From assembly GCF_001954275.1 (NCBI RefSeq), contig NZ_MBEU01000004.1, forward strand, positions 124,001 through 188,000: a stretch of DNA of 64,000 nucleotides. Direction: 5' to 3'. The notes beneath the pieces were generated by a model. That model was not told the origin of the DNA, searched no databases, and was given only the letters and a program-made list of their open reading frames with translations. This DNA comes from Mycobacterium sp. IS-836. Lineage in GTDB: Bacteria > Actinomycetota > Actinomycetes > Mycobacteriales > Mycobacteriaceae. Positions 18,990-61,919 of this stretch are shown in pieces; the stretch's first letter is position 1, and each line of letters starts with the position of its first letter. The position numbers and the translations under genes are program-made.

Positions 18990-19391
18990 GTGACATTCGC
19001 TCCCGGCGTGTTGGTGCATTTGTGCGGCGCACAAGCGTGGGCAGATGCCCGCGTGCGAGGCGAAATTCGCCCGGCGGCGCCCGGCTCGGACGCCGGGGAC
19101 CGGTTCATCCATCTCTCGACGCCCGACCAGGTGCATCTGCCGGCCAACCGGCTCTACCGCGGTCGCGACGACCTGGTGCTGCTGCATATCGATCCTGCCC
19201 GGCTGAACGCACCGGTGCGTTGGGAGCCGGGTGTGCCGACGGATCCCCGGTCGATGTTGTTTCCGCATCTGTACGGCCCGCTCCCGGTGGCCGCTGTGAC
19301 GAGCGTCACGGCCTATGCGCCGGGGCCCGACGGCACGTTCCCGGCGGTCGGCGGAGGTCAGGGCACGGAGTCGGCCGGGGAGTCCACGTAG
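18990..19391 (+). CDS. DUF952 protein (Rv2705c-like)
   Basis: 133 aa. DUF952 hallmark GDRFIHLSTPDQVHLPANRLY and the C-terminal FPHLYGPLP; the fold resembles ADP-ribosyltransferase-like barrels, activity unproven. GTG 18990 with aaggtg 7 nt upstream. Its last 34 bp overlap the 3' end of the convergent RidA-family gene. Confidence 0.82.
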   Translation: MTFAPGVLVHLCGAQAWADARVRGEIRPAAPGSDAGDRFIHLSTPDQVHLPANRLYRGRDDLVLLHIDPARLNAPVRWEPGVPTDPRSMLFPHLYGPLPVAAVTSVTAYAPGPDGTFPAVGGGQGTESAGEST

Positions 19392-19753
19392 GCGTCGGCT
19401 TCGATCTCCACCAGCAGCTCGGGGGCGATGAGCGCGGCGACCTCGACCATCGTCGCCGCGGGACGCACCTCACCGAAGACTTCCGCGTGCACCGCCGCAA
19501 CTTCGCGCCAGCGGGCGATGTCGGTGACATAGATGCGCGTCCGGATTACGTCGGTGAGCTCGGCGCCCGCTTGTTGGAGCGCAATCTCGATGCGGCGCAA
19601 CACCTCTCGGGTTTGGCCCGCGATGTCGCCCGCTAGCCCGGGCGCGGTTGTCCCCGCCACCGCCACGTGTGGGCCGACGCGAACGGCGCGCGAGTAGCCG
19701 ACCACCGACTCGAATTCGGAGCCGGAAGAGACGACTTTTCGGTCGGCTGACAT
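19358..19753 (-). CDS. RidA/YjgF-family protein (Rv2704-like)
   Basis: 131 aa. Typical features: VAVAGTTAPG, DVIRTRIYVTDI with the family Arg that binds the substrate carboxylate, and the C-terminal LLVEIEADAYV. RidA proteins hydrolyse reactive enamine/imine intermediates in the cytosol; subfamily specificity is not decided. In M. tuberculosis this gene is the direct neighbour of sigA; here ~4.3 kb of extra DNA separates them. Confidence 0.87.
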   Translation of the reverse strand: MSADRKVVSSGSEFESVVGYSRAVRVGPHVAVAGTTAPGLAGDIAGQTREVLRRIEIALQQAGAELTDVIRTRIYVTDIARWREVAAVHAEVFGEVRPAATMVEVAALIAPELLVEIEADAYVDSPADSVP

Positions 19754-20303: not shown

Positions 20304-20657
20304 ATGAAACTTCGCTCCGCAGTGGCAAGCGCCGTCGTCCTGATCGGCCTCGCCGCCCCGGCCTACGCCGACGACGGGGACGGCGCGGACGCCGGCACCG
20401 ACAAAGCCTTCCTGGCGGAACTCCAACAGGCCGGCCTGACCTACCAAGACCCGAATAGTGCGGTGGCCGCCGGGAAATCGGTGTGCCAGCTCGTCGACGA
20501 GGGAAAGTCGGCCGCGGAGATCATCACCGAACTGCGTAACCGCAACCCGTCGTTCCAGGGGACGAGCGCCGCGAAGTTTACCGCGCTCGCGGCCGCCGCT
20601 TACTGCCCCCAGTACATGACCGGCGGCGGCCTGACCGACGGCGCCGGCGCGCACTAG
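20304..20657 (+). CDS. Secreted DUF732 protein
   Basis: 117 aa with a signal peptide cut after AYADD-like residues (about 21). The mature ~90 residues have the DUF732 pattern: DKAFLAELQQAGLTY, GKSVCQLVDEG, and a second Cys in AAYCPQY; the two Cys probably form a disulfide. Closely resembles the DUF732 genes at 54537 and 55586, sharing AGLTYQDP. The family is mycobacterial and abundant; function unknown. Confidence 0.82.
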   Translation: MKLRSAVASAVVLIGLAAPAYADDGDGADAGTDKAFLAELQQAGLTYQDPNSAVAAGKSVCQLVDEGKSAAEIITELRNRNPSFQGTSAAKFTALAAAAYCPQYMTGGGLTDGAGAH

Positions 20658-20721
20658 CGGCGCGACTTTCGCTGTGCTGCACGAAAAGTGACGTAGCCTG
20701 GGTCAGGGAAGGAGTCCACGC

Positions 20722-21060
20722 ATGCCCAAACTGTCGTTGACCAGACTTGCCGTAGCGGTTGGTGGTGTGACATTGGCGCTAACCGCCGGGGTCGGCGTCG
20801 CGTCGGCGGATCCCGATCTGGGTCCGGCCGTCAACACCACCTGCACCTATGACCAGCTCGTGGCCGCGTTGAACGCGCAAGACCCGACGATCGCCGCCTT
20901 TTTCAACTCCTCGCCGCAGATGCAGTCCGGACTGCGTGACTTTCTCGCCGCGGGGCCCGATCGGCGGAGGCAAATCGCCCACGACATCGTGAACGGTCCG
21001 CACGCCGGGCCGTACATCCCGGTTCTCCAGCGGACCTTCGCTACCTGCAACAACTTCTGA
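20722..21060 (+). CDS. Secreted hemophore-related protein
   Basis: 112 aa with a signal peptide (VAVGGVTLALTAGVGVASAD) and two Cys at either end of the mature domain (NTTCTYDQL and FATCNNF). Pattern matches the mycobacterial heme-binding (Rv0203-type) family: Cys-Tyr, ALNAQDP, QMQSGLRDFLAAGPDRR. ggaagga precedes ATG 20722. Heme binding is inferred from family only. Ends 9 bp before the sigA-like repeat at 21070. Confidence 0.75.
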   Translation: MPKLSLTRLAVAVGGVTLALTAGVGVASADPDLGPAVNTTCTYDQLVAALNAQDPTIAAFFNSSPQMQSGLRDFLAAGPDRRRQIAHDIVNGPHAGPYIPVLQRTFATCNNF

Positions 21061-21069
21061 GCGAGGCTC

Positions 21070-21091
21070 GCTCAGTCCAAGTAGTCGCGCA
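21070..21091. repeat. Left copy of sigA 3'-end sequence (candidate attachment-site relic)
   Basis: 22 bp matching 24049-24070, the end of sigA, at 20 of 22 positions: gctcagtc, then gtagtcgcgca, with differences at 21078 and 21080. The differences turn the penultimate Leu codon from CTC to TTG, so both copies encode RDYLD-stop on the minus strand. A minus-strand frame of up to 75 codons runs into it (ending SLVRDYLD) but shows no sigma-factor sequence further upstream. Confidence 0.55.
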
Positions 21092-21360
21092 CCAGGGATC
21101 GCTGTGCGCTGTAGTTCCTGCGTGTTTCCGTTGCTGGGCCGAGAGCGTAGATAGATCGAATATCTTTGACTGAGCCTCGCGATTCACTGAGCCGTTCGAC
21201 GTAAGCACACGCGCTCGCACGTTCCGGCCCGGCAGCGTCGATCTGAGCGTCGGGAAATGACGCGGCGGGCGCGCGATGACGTGCGGCATATAGGCACATT
21301 CAGTAGCGCTCACGCGTGTCGTCGTCAGAGTCGATCTGCCGCACTGGAAGTATTTGAATC
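21092..21360. other. 269-bp accessory sequence without an assigned gene
   Basis: A minus-strand open frame (21299 to 21072, 75 codons) covers this stretch and ends in SLVRDYLD; it has no start signal or recognised homologue and could be a gene remnant. Base composition is lower in GC than the flanking core genes. The promoter of the membrane-protein gene at 21361 must lie here. Confidence 0.4.
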
Positions 21361-21942
21361 ATGTCCGACGCACTTGTCACCGCATTGGTGACCACCGGCG
21401 GCGTGCTCCTGGTCGCAATCCTCAGCCTGATCAGTGCACGAATCGCCGCGAACGATAAGCGGAACCGCCTCGTGCGTGAAGTCGAGGTACTGAACAACCT
21501 TGAGAAATTTCCCGTTGAGCAAGAACTCATGCGCCTACAGGTGAGCCGGTCGATCGATCACCTGTGGCGGGCTACGGCGGATCGCGAAGTGACTATTCGC
21601 ATAATCTGGCAACTGTTCTGGTCCTTCTTCTTCATCGCAACCACGATCGGTCTCCTTAATCTGCCGGGGCACGTCCATCTGGGTATGTGGAAGGTTGTGT
21701 ATTTTGAGTGGCTAGGTTTCTCCTTTATCGGGTTGTTCGCTACATGGGTTTGGATGTGGCGCCCCACGGCACAGAGGGTGCGAAATTCGTCGCGTCTTCG
21801 TAAAGTGTTCGCCCGCCTCAGGCGGAAGAATAAGGATGGTGCTGGACCTGACGCGGTTGGCGGCAAGGCGGCAGCCGACGACGGGTCTGAGCAAGACAGT
21901 GATCCATCCGAATCAGTCGACCGCGGCACGGGCCGCACCTAG
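21361..21942 (+). CDS. Uncharacterised membrane protein, three predicted transmembrane helices
   Basis: 193 aa, not recognised. An N-terminal helix (LVTALVTTGGVLLVAILSLISARIA, about residues 4-28), a charged ~45-residue segment, then a helix pair (IIWQLFWSFFFIATTIGLL and WLGFSFIGLFATWVWMW, about 83-140), then a basic and finally acidic Ser/Asp-rich tail. tggaag lies 11-16 nt before the ATG. Codon use is less GC-biased than flanking genes, consistent with foreign origin. First gene of the 3 kb block inserted next to sigA. Confidence 0.65.
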   Translation: MSDALVTALVTTGGVLLVAILSLISARIAANDKRNRLVREVEVLNNLEKFPVEQELMRLQVSRSIDHLWRATADREVTIRIIWQLFWSFFFIATTIGLLNLPGHVHLGMWKVVYFEWLGFSFIGLFATWVWMWRPTAQRVRNSSRLRKVFARLRRKNKDGAGPDAVGGKAAADDGSEQDSDPSESVDRGTGRT

Positions 21943-22076
21943 CGCGCGGGCCAGCGCGCGAGCCTCGGCCGGGTCAGGAAGTCGGTCGGGTCGAGGCCGG
22001 CCATGCGCACCAGGCGCTCCTCCTCGCCTTCGTAGTGCCCGATGAACGGGTCCACGATGATGTTGCTGCTGGGTCG
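21939..22076 (-). pseudogene. C-terminal remnant of an unidentified gene
   Basis: One minus-strand frame reads about 43 codons in high-GC3 mycobacterial codons (SNIIVDPFIGHYEGEEERLV ... TRPRLARWPAR) to a TAG at 21939-21941. It is cut off at its 5' side by an in-frame TGA around 22083 and abrupt AT-richer sequence. No start or Shine-Dalgarno. I do not recognise the parent family. It overlaps the end of the preceding membrane-protein gene by 4 bp. Confidence 0.5.
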
Positions 22077-22273
22077 GGCCTCTCAATAGCAGTGCGCATA
22101 CCAGCAGTATTGGACGACTTCTGTTGCATTACAAGGGAATTCGGCAAATCGATACACGTATTCCTTATCCAGAATCCGATTCTGGGCCCGGGTGCCCAGC
22201 CCGCAGGGCCGCGCTGACGGCTGATCCAGACCGTGTTGTTACCGGGGTCGTCGAACGCAGCACGCCAAGATAG
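22077..22273. other. Spacer upstream of the coiled-coil membrane-protein gene
   Basis: About 200 bp of lower-GC sequence. No gene or strong hairpin seen; presumably holds the promoter of the gene at 22274. Confidence 0.35.
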
Positions 22274-22975
22274 ATGCTCGTGGGGCTCGTTAACAGACGC
22301 TTGCTCATCGGCGCGCTGTGCATCATTACCGCGGCCCTGGCACTTGCTCTGTGGTGCGCTCAGCCGCACGGCAGCCTTGCCGTCTGGTGGAATCCCCACT
22401 GGCCATACCTGCGGCACTTGCTGGCCCGGAAAGGCGCTACCGCGATCCAGGCAGTCGGGGCGCTGATCGCGTTTTATGGGCTCGCGAGGGCGTATCTGCG
22501 GGCGAAGTACGACCTGCGGGTCTGGCAATGGGCCAAACGGGGTGTTGCGCGGCTAGCCGGCCGCGTTGATCGACTGTGGCGGGCGCTGCTGCGCAAGCCG
22601 CTAGACGCGACCGTTCACGTCGGCCGCGCATCGGCATCGTATGCGTGGATGCCAAGTCCAGCAGTCGGAGTATCGAACGCTGTCGTCGACTTCACATTGC
22701 CGCTGCAAGAACAAATCAAGCGGTTGACCGAGTACGTGAACAAGAAAGCTGAGCAGGCTGCCGAGATGCAGGGAAACATCGCTCGGCTACAGCGAGATCT
22801 TGAGAAAGCGCGTGATAAAACTTCAGAGCTCAAACGAGAAACGTGGGCGCACATCGAAACTCAGATTCAACAGTTAAACGACCGGCTCAACAACATCCAA
22901 GCCCTAGACCTGACGTGGGCGATCTGGGGGCTTTTCATCACGTTTGTGGGTACCGTGTTGAGCCTGTGGGCGTAG
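22274..22975 (+). CDS. Uncharacterised membrane protein with coiled coil and C-terminal anchor
   Basis: 233 aa, no family recognised. Helix 1 (LLIGALCIITAALALALWC, about 9-28), helix 2 (TAIQAVGALIAFYGLARAYL, about 55-74), a basic amphipathic stretch, then a long coiled coil (about 138-205: LQEQIKRLTEYVNKKAEQAA ... IETQIQQLNDRLNNIQ) and a last hydrophobic helix at the very C terminus (WAIWGLFITFVGTVLSLW). The start ATG has only a weak aaga upstream. Between the three-helix protein and the HEPN-like gene on the same strand. Confidence 0.65.
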   Translation: MLVGLVNRRLLIGALCIITAALALALWCAQPHGSLAVWWNPHWPYLRHLLARKGATAIQAVGALIAFYGLARAYLRAKYDLRVWQWAKRGVARLAGRVDRLWRALLRKPLDATVHVGRASASYAWMPSPAVGVSNAVVDFTLPLQEQIKRLTEYVNKKAEQAAEMQGNIARLQRDLEKARDKTSELKRETWAHIETQIQQLNDRLNNIQALDLTWAIWGLFITFVGTVLSLWA

Positions 22976-23152
22976 ACGCGCCGAACGAGCGCGACGTGCG
23001 GCACATGCCGCACCACAAACTTTACACCAGTCTGCATTCTCCATATTTTCCACAAAATTCGGACATCCTGTAGGAAAAACTGGACAAACTGTCTGGAAAT
23101 CAGACCAAACATATTGTGCACGAACAGGTTTCAACGATCTACGCTGTCATTT

Positions 23153-23908
23153 ATGACTGAACCACCGGACCAGCCTGGCCCCTCAAACCAACCGATCAAG
23201 GCGGAATTCAAAGTGGTGACCGGCCTAACTGCGTCGGTGTCCATACGCAACTACATGGCCAACCAGCACCTATGGAATGCTCGGCGCGAAGCGTGGCTGT
23301 GCCGAAAACGCGAAGAAACATTGCAGAACCTTGACCGGGCTCACCTCTCGCACGCCATGATGGCCGTGCTGTCGGCGGTCGCGTTCCTTGAGGCGTTTGT
23401 CAACGCGGTGTGGCAAGACGCTGCCGACAGCGACCCAGGTGAGCACACCCACTACACCGATGGCATTCCCGACGCCGCCGTCGCGATCATGCGTGAATTG
23501 TGGACAGGCAAACGCAAAAACAAAGAGGACGCCGAACGAATGATGTCGTTACAGAGCAAGTTCCAGATCGCCCTGGTCTGCGCCGGCCGCGATCGCCTGG
23601 ATAAGGGCGCTGAGCCCTATCAGAGCGTCGACGTGCTGATCGACTTGCGAAATGAGTTGGTGCACTTCAAACCCCAGTGGTGGCACGACGACGGCAGAGA
23701 CGAAGCGAAATTTGTCGCGCAGCTGCGAGAAAAAATTAAGCAGACACGCCAGAGCCCCTTCGCACAACTCCCGCTCGGAGCTGGCTGCGCTGACTGGGCG
23801 TGTAGCTCAGTGATCGCATTCGCTAGAGACTGGCACAGTCGGATGGGACTGGCGCACGACTTTGACAAGGTCTACCTGCTTCCAACGGAGCCGTTTCAAG
23901 TGCCCTAG
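23153..23908 (+). CDS. HEPN-like protein of unknown function
   Basis: 251 aa soluble protein. A helical segment AVLSAVAFLEAFVNAVWQ (about 84-101) is followed by KFQIALVCAG and by LRNELVHFKPQW with Arg166 and His171, the Rx4-6H signature seen in HEPN ribonuclease-type domains. Such proteins occur in toxin, abortive-infection and stress loci as well as in neutral settings. ATG 23153 (MTEPPDQ) starts a Pro-rich leader; an upstream in-frame GTG (23114) is less likely. Preceded by 177 bp of AT-rich DNA that probably holds its own promoter. Family call is by motif only. Confidence 0.6.
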   Translation: MTEPPDQPGPSNQPIKAEFKVVTGLTASVSIRNYMANQHLWNARREAWLCRKREETLQNLDRAHLSHAMMAVLSAVAFLEAFVNAVWQDAADSDPGEHTHYTDGIPDAAVAIMRELWTGKRKNKEDAERMMSLQSKFQIALVCAGRDRLDKGAEPYQSVDVLIDLRNELVHFKPQWWHDDGRDEAKFVAQLREKIKQTRQSPFAQLPLGAGCADWACSSVIAFARDWHSRMGLAHDFDKVYLLPTEPFQVP

Positions 23909-24050
23909 GCAGCCCGACGCGGCGCCGCGCTGCGTGAACCCGCTCGTGGCACTGTGTCGCCTCGCGAAATTACGCACCAGCATTCACGGTTGGCGGTTTT
24001 CTTGACTGAGCTGTAAAAGGGCTGCTCAGAGGTGTAGAAGCGTTATCTGC

Positions 24051-25589
<1,539 letters not shown>

Positions 25590-25766
25590 GTACACCCCTT
25601 CGGTTGGGCTCACTTCCGGTGGGTCTGGGCATGGTGGACCGAAAGTGTCTGCTATGTCGAATGTCGGCGTTGATCTCGGCGTGAGTACTGGCACGCTATC
25701 GGTCGGGCGGTCGCCGGTGACCATTGTAACGACAGTGCGCGCTTGTACCGGCCCACCGGGCGAAAT

Positions 25767-61403: not shown

Positions 61404-61478
61404 TGGTGCGCGATACTGGGATTGAACCAGTGACCTCTTCCGTGTCAGGGAAGCGCTCTCCCGCTGAGCTAATCGCGC
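61404..61478 (-). tRNA. tRNA-Val(GAC)
   Basis: 75 nt including encoded CCA. 7-bp acceptor gcgcgat/atcgcgc, D arm, anticodon loop cUGACac with GAC, T arm ggttcaatcc. Its 3' end faces the low-GC membrane-protein gene. Confidence 0.95.
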
Positions 61479-61492
61479 TGGGAGTCGAACTT

Positions 61493-61566
61493 TGGAGGTG
61501 GAGACGGGAATCGAACCCGTGTGCACGGCTTTGCAGGCCGTTGCCTCACCACTCGGCCACTCCACC
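61493..61566 (-). tRNA. tRNA-Cys(GCA)
   Basis: 74 nt including CCA. Acceptor ggtggag/ctccacc, anticodon loop with GCA, T loop ggttcgattcc. 14 nt upstream of tRNA-Val in transcription direction. Confidence 0.95.
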
Positions 61567-61594
61567 GCTGGGATTGATGCCACTTGCACCTTCG

Positions 61595-61667
61595 AGCGGA
61601 TGACGGGATTCGAACCCGCGACCCTCACCTTGGCAAGGTGATGCGCTACCAACTGCGCTACATCCGC
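61595..61667 (-). tRNA. tRNA-Gly(GCC)
   Basis: 73 nt, CCA not encoded. Acceptor gcggatg/catccgc, anticodon GCC in cttGCCaag, T arm ggttcgaatcc. First of the minus-strand trio Gly-Cys-Val. Confidence 0.95.
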
Positions 61668-61844
61668 GCGCAACGGACGAGATCGTCGCCCGGTGCGAAG
61701 CACGACGATAGTCCACGTAAGCGGGCCCACACAAATCTCTTGACGCGGGCCGTGTCCAGGCTATCGCGCGACCCCCGCGGGCGCAGCTGGCGTCCCGCGA
61801 TGTCCCGTCGTGCTACCCTTCGACGTCGTTCGCCTCTCGGCGCC

Positions 61845-61919
61845 GGTCCCGTGGCTCAGTGGGAGAGCGTCCGCTTCACACGCGGAAGGTCGCTGGTTCG
61901 ATCCCAGCCGGGACCACCA
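61845..61919 (+). tRNA. tRNA-Val(CAC)
   Basis: 75 nt including CCA. Acceptor ggtcccg/cgggacc, anticodon CAC in ttCACac, T arm ggttcgatcc. Divergent from the other three. Confidence 0.95.

Follow-up and report, generated by a model that had tools for sequence, protein, structure and literature searches.

A probable mobile-element remnant in the 3' end of a mycobacterial sigA gene, and its likely relatives behind sigma factor genes of Actinomycetota

Introduction

Why does the end of a principal sigma factor gene occur twice in a mycobacterial genome, and what is the DNA that lies between the two copies? The question is raised by a 64-kb stretch of Mycobacterium sp. IS-836 (here called the window), in which a minus-strand gene that we take, from its sequence, to be sigA, encoding the principal sigma factor, is followed downstream by a 3-kb block and then by host genes, up to RidA. 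An initial annotation of this DNA had read the block as a decayed element that brought with it a replacement end for sigA. That reading is supported here by profiles of the attachment (att) site arms, by recurrence of the arrangement in other genomes, and by integrases located next to sigA. Judged from sequence comparison, the block at positions 21072-24050 is very probably the integrase-less remains of a mobile element that would have entered the last codons of sigA by tyrosine-integrase insertion. It likely belongs to a family of phage-like elements with integrases directly behind sigA in many genera of Actinomycetota.

Results

The 3' end of sigA, at positions 24049-24073, is repeated in the same orientation at 21070-21094 with 22 of 25 bases identical, and two near-identical copies of the last 21 bases of the gene thus border the 3-kb block. 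Within the first 22 bases of the repeat there are two differences, both in one Leu codon (CTC in sigA, TTG in the left copy), and for this reason both copies spell RDYLD-stop. The initial annotation had given 20 matches in 22, synonymous differences and the same RDYLD-stop ending, all of which was borne out by the repeat comparison and its shuffle control: a scan of the 64 kb that allowed up to three mismatches found these two places only, with none expected from 100 shuffles. Similarity to sigA at the left copy stops after 25 bases, and no longer sigA homology was found there.

To place the repeat among relatives, a 301-base sigA probe was used, which was found in 392 of 396 genomes of the genus. 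The 60 relatives compared are the best-scoring of those listed, taken as pieces of 4.7-12.3 kb; the set leaves out the window's own genome as well as G247 and G030, whose contigs end near sigA. The distance from sigA to RidA varies from 34 to 10,050 bp (58 of the 60, in which RidA was found) and is at least 600 bp in 20 of the 60. A second copy of the sigA end (at least 17 of 21 bases) was present in six relatives (L032, L041, L048, L065, L071, and L088), in every case inside the sigA-RidA interval and in the same orientation. No copy was found elsewhere on either strand of the 680,115 bases, and none in one shuffle per piece. L048 has an imperfect distal core (GTGAGCGACTACCCGGACTGA), separated from sigA by a PE-PGRS gene with a C-terminal aspartyl-peptidase-like domain at +51 to +1527 from the sigA stop codon. 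Seven relatives (L034, L042, L044, L049, L055, L074, and L082) have intervals of 1.6-4.0 kb without a detectable second core, which may be older remnants or the outcome of other events.

The initial annotation had proposed a search for integrases beside sigA ends in other genomes, and tyrosine integrases were indeed found directly behind sigA. Locus L071 comes from genome G249, which is Mycobacterium montefiorense according to the identical named locus L151; its first gene after sigA codes for a 313-amino-acid tyrosine recombinase (PF00589, E=1.4e-29). Its residues R163, K188, H257, R260, and Y292, which presumably have the catalytic roles, are invariant in 13 aligned sequences. When the 396 genomes were scanned for this integrase and the best matches were fetched as 30 loci, a sigA end lay directly upstream of the integrase, on the same strand, in 18 of them. 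The other 12 carry integrases with 55-58% (eight loci) or 61-63% (four loci) identity, a range that overlaps with that of the sigA-adjacent loci (61-100%). A distal core was then sought in pieces of at most 20 kb from 17 of the 18 sigA-adjacent loci and from G060 (truncated integrase). It was found in 15 of these 18 (14 of the 17, and G060) at 4.9-15.8 kb, and two of the three loci without it lie on contigs that end within 6.2 kb. Overall, 17 bounded elements of 3,978-15,793 bp contain the integrase or its pieces, including L071 and L065 (broken integrase), and five bounded blocks contain no integrase, namely the window block, L032, L041, L048, and L088.

Comparison of the two core copies in these 22 bounded elements suggests where recombination would take place. 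The first codon of the distal core is GTG in 21 of 22, the window included, and that of the proximal core is CTG or TTG in all 22; the stop codons differ between the copies in 6 of 22, as expected if one of the two stops were the element's. This pattern would place the crossover inside TGCGCGACTAC. In the mechanism that we propose, a version of the sigA end would be part of the element and serve as its attP. Recombination within TGCGCGACTAC would then give sigA the synonymous end and stop codon of the element, and the original end would be pushed to the far side of the element. Left of the crossover, the distal copy would consist of element DNA, and right of it the element DNA would be in sigA. 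In the window, the proximal core bases right of the crossover were likely supplied by the element, and the corresponding part of the distal core likely carries the original sigA stop end; the reading frame and end residues of sigA are restored at the proximal core (RDYLD-stop). Integrase and replication genes would later have been lost from the window block by deletion.

The DNA beside the cores was examined with nucleotide profiles of the att arms (nhmmer), covering 130 bases before the distal core (17 elements) and 80 bases after the proximal core (19 elements) and built without the core and without the window. Each profile gave a single significant match in the 64 kb, and both matches lie at the two junctions of the block (Table 1). 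Among the four other integrase-less blocks, L088 retains both arms (E=1.1e-12 and 1.4e-8) and L032 the distal arm only (2.2e-10). The initial annotation had also allowed that the left repeat might come from an unrelated conserved gene ending in RDYLD; such a gene end would be one form of a chance or convergent likeness. A 75-amino-acid open reading frame (ORF; 21072-21299, minus strand) does terminate at the left copy. However, no Pfam family scored above cut-off for this ORF, the attP arm profile matches its DNA, no such repeat is expected by chance, and the same arrangement recurs in many genomes. Arm profile, shuffles, and recurrence together rule this explanation out, and its probability is close to nil.

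The flanks were compared with genome G116 (L031), the nearest sampled (sigA probe 95%). Leftwards from position 21077, inside the distal core, G116 and the window share 93% DNA identity over 2,256 bases, and the 112-amino-acid protein encoded in this flank is 96% identical. At the repeat the homology breaks, and G116 has an unrelated 0.87-kb filling up to sigA, at the far end of which no core copy was found. By eye, the approximately 870 bases after sigA in this filling hold an HNH-like start and an ORF of the trypsin-like serine protease type. A search of 148 genomes with the flank at 20304-21060 gave a best match outside the own locus of 73% over about 244 bases (G116 was not among the matches listed). 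For the 22 bounded elements, 39 relatives with a sigA-RidA interval below 620 bp were used as the reference. In 9 of 22, the 150 bases that follow the distal core have a match in the post-sigA DNA of these short-interval relatives; on the proximal side this is so in 0 of 22. The window belongs to the 13 elements whose distal flank has no such match. A direct repeat of a gene end could also arise if the sigA 3' end had simply been duplicated as a segment, with no site-specific recombination involved, but the similarity ends at 25 bases and the flanks match element arms or, reciprocally in relatives, host flank, which leaves this explanation with a negligible probability.

Between the copies there are ORFs of 193, 233, and about 251 amino acids plus one stretch without assignment, and the GC fraction is 0.588 versus 0.675 for the window, in agreement with the contents and lower GC given by the initial annotation. 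The third product had been described there as HEPN-like; HEPN proteins are marked by an R-x4-6-H motif on an all-helical fold. An R-x4-H motif is invariant in 13 of 13 aligned sequences and the structural model is all-helical (mean predicted local distance difference test score, 75.8), but the match to Pfam RiboL-PSP-HEPN is sub-threshold (E=0.06) and a structure search found no significant match in PDB or in the viral BFVD. The name HEPN-like refers to the motif and the predicted fold. Relatives of this protein are present in 18 of the 396 genomes, own included; none was found in the 60 sigA loci or in the other elements searched, and at the 14 other places fetched, sigA does not occur within 1.5 kb. 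The 233-amino-acid protein has relatives in 12 of the 396 genomes, own included, and those in G249 (L071) and G100 (L065) lie within sigA elements (31-36%). For the 193-amino-acid protein, no Pfam family above cut-off and no relative in the loci compared was found. PADLOC, applied to the three proteins of the block, gave only weak matches (E 0.0005-0.006), none of them for the 193-amino-acid one. The HEPN-like and membrane proteins that remain may have served phage defence or superinfection exclusion. In the unassigned stretch, 31 bases have a 90% match (E=1.3e-4) in viral contig L252, which carries an integrase behind a sigma gene end.

The sigA-RidA interval might instead be a hot spot of successive events. 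The att copies would then date from a first element, the cargo seen today would have arrived afterwards, through homologous exchange or nested insertion, and the block would not be a single element. The wholly different 0.87-kb filling between the same borders in sister genome G116, the frequency of intervals of at least 600 bp, and the distribution of HEPN-like gene relatives away from sigA would all fit such a history. However, a single 3-kb block retains the two att arms as well as a cargo gene with relatives in two sigA elements, and we regard the hot-spot history as unlikely but not negligible.

No tyrosine integrase gene was seen directly behind sigA in the window. The best match to the family integrase in the window's own genome has E=6.2e-26 (5 of 10 candidates scored), a level seen in nearly every genome of the genus, and the 18 sigA-adjacent loci have E values of 8.2e-121 or lower. 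Because an integrase was not seen in the block and a family-level match was not seen in the genome, the block is classed as a remnant and not as an intact member. An integrase-less block with functional att sites could still be movable in trans by the integrase of a related phage or satellite, and it is true that the core is kept at both ends and that arm remnants persist; with arms this weak and no family-level integrase match in the own genome, continued mobility is very improbable.

Phage structural genes are present in at least 10 of the 17 integrase-bearing bounded elements, including HK97-type major head and head protease genes, Phage_capsid in L124 and L126, and tail tape-measure genes in L123, L125, and L126; primases occur in L121, L125, and L135. 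An integrase and a major capsid gene on one element, the mark of a candidate phage-inducible chromosomal island (PICI) or phage satellite, were found in relatives such as L071, L124, L131, and L134 and not in the window block, which gave no match to four capsid queries. Defence-type genes were also found: a SIR2-type PDC-S65 in L129, PDC-S59 in L124, a PD-T4-6-like kinase in L135, and Mrr-type nucleases in L032 and L071. Each of L088 and L137, both sigA-located, has a cation-efflux-type gene. In many of L121-L135, an inverted repeat (CTGACCAGC...GGTCAG in several) recurs about 20 bases after the sigA stop codon, with a related motif in the distal arm, and is a candidate arm site or terminator.

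The arrangement extends well beyond the genus. When named genomes were scanned and the best 80 of 104 loci were kept, 54 of the 80 had the integrase directly downstream of a core-bearing sigma gene end. These 54 loci come from Mycobacterium/Mycolicibacterium, Nakamurella, Streptomyces, Wenjunlia, Rhodococcus, Dietzia, Nocardia, Pseudonocardia, Actinotalea, Modestobacter, Geodermatophilus, Actinomyces, Micrococcus, Nocardioides, Pedococcus, Actinomadura, Glutamicibacter, and Thermoactinospora, among others. Identity of the sigma end to SigA of the window is 79-100% in 52 of the 54 and 63-65% in two Actinomadura, which may belong to another sigma group. QVLRDYLD is spelled by 51 of the 54 ends, with one Nakamurella and the two Actinomadura differing by 1-3 residues. 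Sixteen of 20 non-mycobacterial genomes have a same-strand core pair on one contig, 8,743-24,131 bp apart (8.7-10.9 kb in 12 of the 16), and in the remaining four the core copies lie on separate contigs; 48 core matches were found in these 20 genomes versus 9 for the reversed pattern. GTG is the first codon in 10 of the 16 distal cores, one Streptomyces (L172) among them.

An integrase tree (midpoint root) was built from 61 of 108 loci; for the other 47, the frame extended to the first residue of the query met a contig edge or gave fewer than 250 residues. Of the 61 rows, 53 fall into one clade (support 100/98), made up of 40 sigma-adjacent, 8 core-only, and 5 other integrases. In L201 (Kutzneria), a related integrase lies behind the core-like TGGGCGGCTACCTGGATTGA and a sigma gene end was not found there; this integrase has possibly been retargeted.

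The core is also found in phages. Streptomyces phage Kromp (MH744420.1; 58 kb, host S. lividans) carries the core GTGCGCGACTATCTCGACTGA, with GTG as first codon, ending 77 bases before the annotated start of a tyrosine integrase gene; the encoded protein shares 57.5% identity with the mycobacterial integrase. No Kromp lysogen junction was seen, and no relevant literature on Kromp was found. Eight IMG/VR contigs were found by the core pattern, six of them with a related integrase downstream (five within about 150 bases, one at about 0.75 kb). The 44 IMG/VR integrase loci include 10 in which the core is present and a sigma gene is not, which are, with Kromp, candidate free attP sites, and 5 that have both; several of the integrase contigs are 58-79 kb long. 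Phage-sized and small elements thus share the attP core. Mycobacteriophage Toto (integrase 46%) was considered and rejected, with no sigA core in the 6.8 kb around its integrase (best 14/20). In a plasmid collection, nothing above 33.2% identity to the integrase was found (best 15 of 39 matches).

Several observations weigh against the reading of the block as the remains of such an element. Neither an integrase ORF (ORF list and Pfam, as the initial annotation had stated) nor a phage gene was found in the block, and its arm matches are weak (20.9 and 14.3 bits). Among the blocks of the same kind, L041 has neither arm and L048 only a match of E=0.022 away from the junction, and both are less sure as elements for that reason. 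As to the empty site that the initial annotation had proposed to look for, short sigA-RidA gaps, from 34 bp up, do exist, but no clean empty site was found in a close relative, and G116 holds its other filling. Fourteen of the 20 long intervals have no distal repeat at the threshold of at least 17/21, and 26 of the 80 named integrase loci do not lie behind a sigma gene. The sigma label changes eight times on the tree (shuffled mean, 17.6), with core-only rows counted as different. Finally, GTG is not universal, since 6 of the 16 non-mycobacterial distal cores (five Streptomyces and Wenjunlia; L174, L181, L188, L192, L197, and L208) begin with CTG or TTG; the left half of attP may differ in these.

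Positions of all features in the window are collected in Table 1. Elsewhere in the window, at 61404-61919, there is a cluster of four tRNA genes: Val, Cys, Gly (minus), and Val (plus).

Table 1. Features of the sigA-RidA region of the window, in order of position
Feature	Position	Strand	Remarks
RidA	19358-19753	-	PF01042
112-amino-acid protein, possibly secreted (by eye)	20722-21060	+	host-side flank, common to sister genome G116
Distal (displaced) att core	21072-21092	-	GTGCGCGACTACTTGGACTGA in sigA sense
Putative attP arm remnant beside the distal core	21132-21182	-	nhmmer E=9.2e-6
Predicted membrane protein (by eye), 193 amino acids	21361-21942	+	cargo
Possible gene remnant stretch	21943-22273		no convincing protein relative
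Predicted membrane and coiled-coil protein, 233 amino acids	22274-22975	+	cargo
HEPN-like protein, 251 amino acids	23153-23908	+	patchily distributed cargo
Putative attP' arm remnant behind sigA	23998-24036	-	nhmmer E=0.0013
Proximal att core	24051-24071	-	last seven sigA codons including the stop; TTGCGCGACTACCTCGACTGA in sigA sense
sigA, presumed principal sigma factor gene	24051-25724	-	insertion target; start codon not settled

Discussion

If the block is what it appears to be, the target of the family is an essential, highly conserved protein-coding gene, as opposed to the tRNA and transfer-messenger RNA (tmRNA) genes used in most M. abscessus cases. Conservation of the sigma gene would account for the breadth of the family, from Mycobacterium to Streptomyces, Nocardia, Nocardioides, Micrococcus, and Actinomyces. 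The sigA-RidA interval varies between 34 bp and 10 kb among 58 mycobacterial genomes, and insertion at this site would be the reason for at least some of that variation. The DNA behind sigA or its counterpart hrdB offers a simple handle for finding elements. The sigA/hrdB end is also a candidate general attB for actinobacterial integration vectors, and it would be a natural setting in which phages and satellites compete for one site. A broader proposal is that the 3' end of the principal sigma factor gene is a phylum-wide dock for full temperate phages and for satellites of about 10 kb with the same attP, where they would meet, exclude, or mobilise one another, and that in every carrier the end and 3' flank of the housekeeping sigma gene are supplied by the element; for this wider picture, we consider the chances to be evenly divided.

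A literature search, with supplementary attB tables and most subscription journals outside its reach, found no description of sigA or hrdB as an att site. Priority for such a site is not proven, because, of the tyrosine-integrase sites described for M. abscessus in the accessible text of PMC10654092, the seven outside tRNA and tmRNA genes stand in a table beyond that search; 16 of the 23 sites overlap tRNA or tmRNA genes.

Cis-mobilisable elements (CIMEs) consist of cargo flanked by att sites without a recombination module, and the window block is likewise att-flanked and free of recombination genes. Phage Kromp is like the sigA elements in its core and related integrase; unlike them, it is a full 58-kb phage. 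The candidate PICIs of mycobacteria resemble the sigA elements in carrying phage structural genes, as at least 10 of the 17 bounded ones do. As far as the accessible text of PMC10654092 goes, the islands presented either have tyrosine integrases and target tRNA genes or have a serine integrase, and its main text contains neither sigA nor sigma; compared with these islands, the window block has no integrase and no detected capsid gene. A parallel in a protein-coding gene is the M. abscessus prophage at attB-8, in the 3' end of MAB_2979, which also uses a tyrosine integrase and replaces the end of a protein gene. According to the portion of PMC8092301 available, that prophage swaps seven residues for eight phage-derived ones, whereas 51 of 54 sigma ends in the present family keep the common QVLRDYLD. 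SGI1, in the trmE 3' end (PMC8409611, accessible text), and the islands at the dusA 5' end (PMC4482086, accessible text) share site-specific insertion at a gene end with the elements described here, but their target in each case is another gene and not a principal sigma factor gene.

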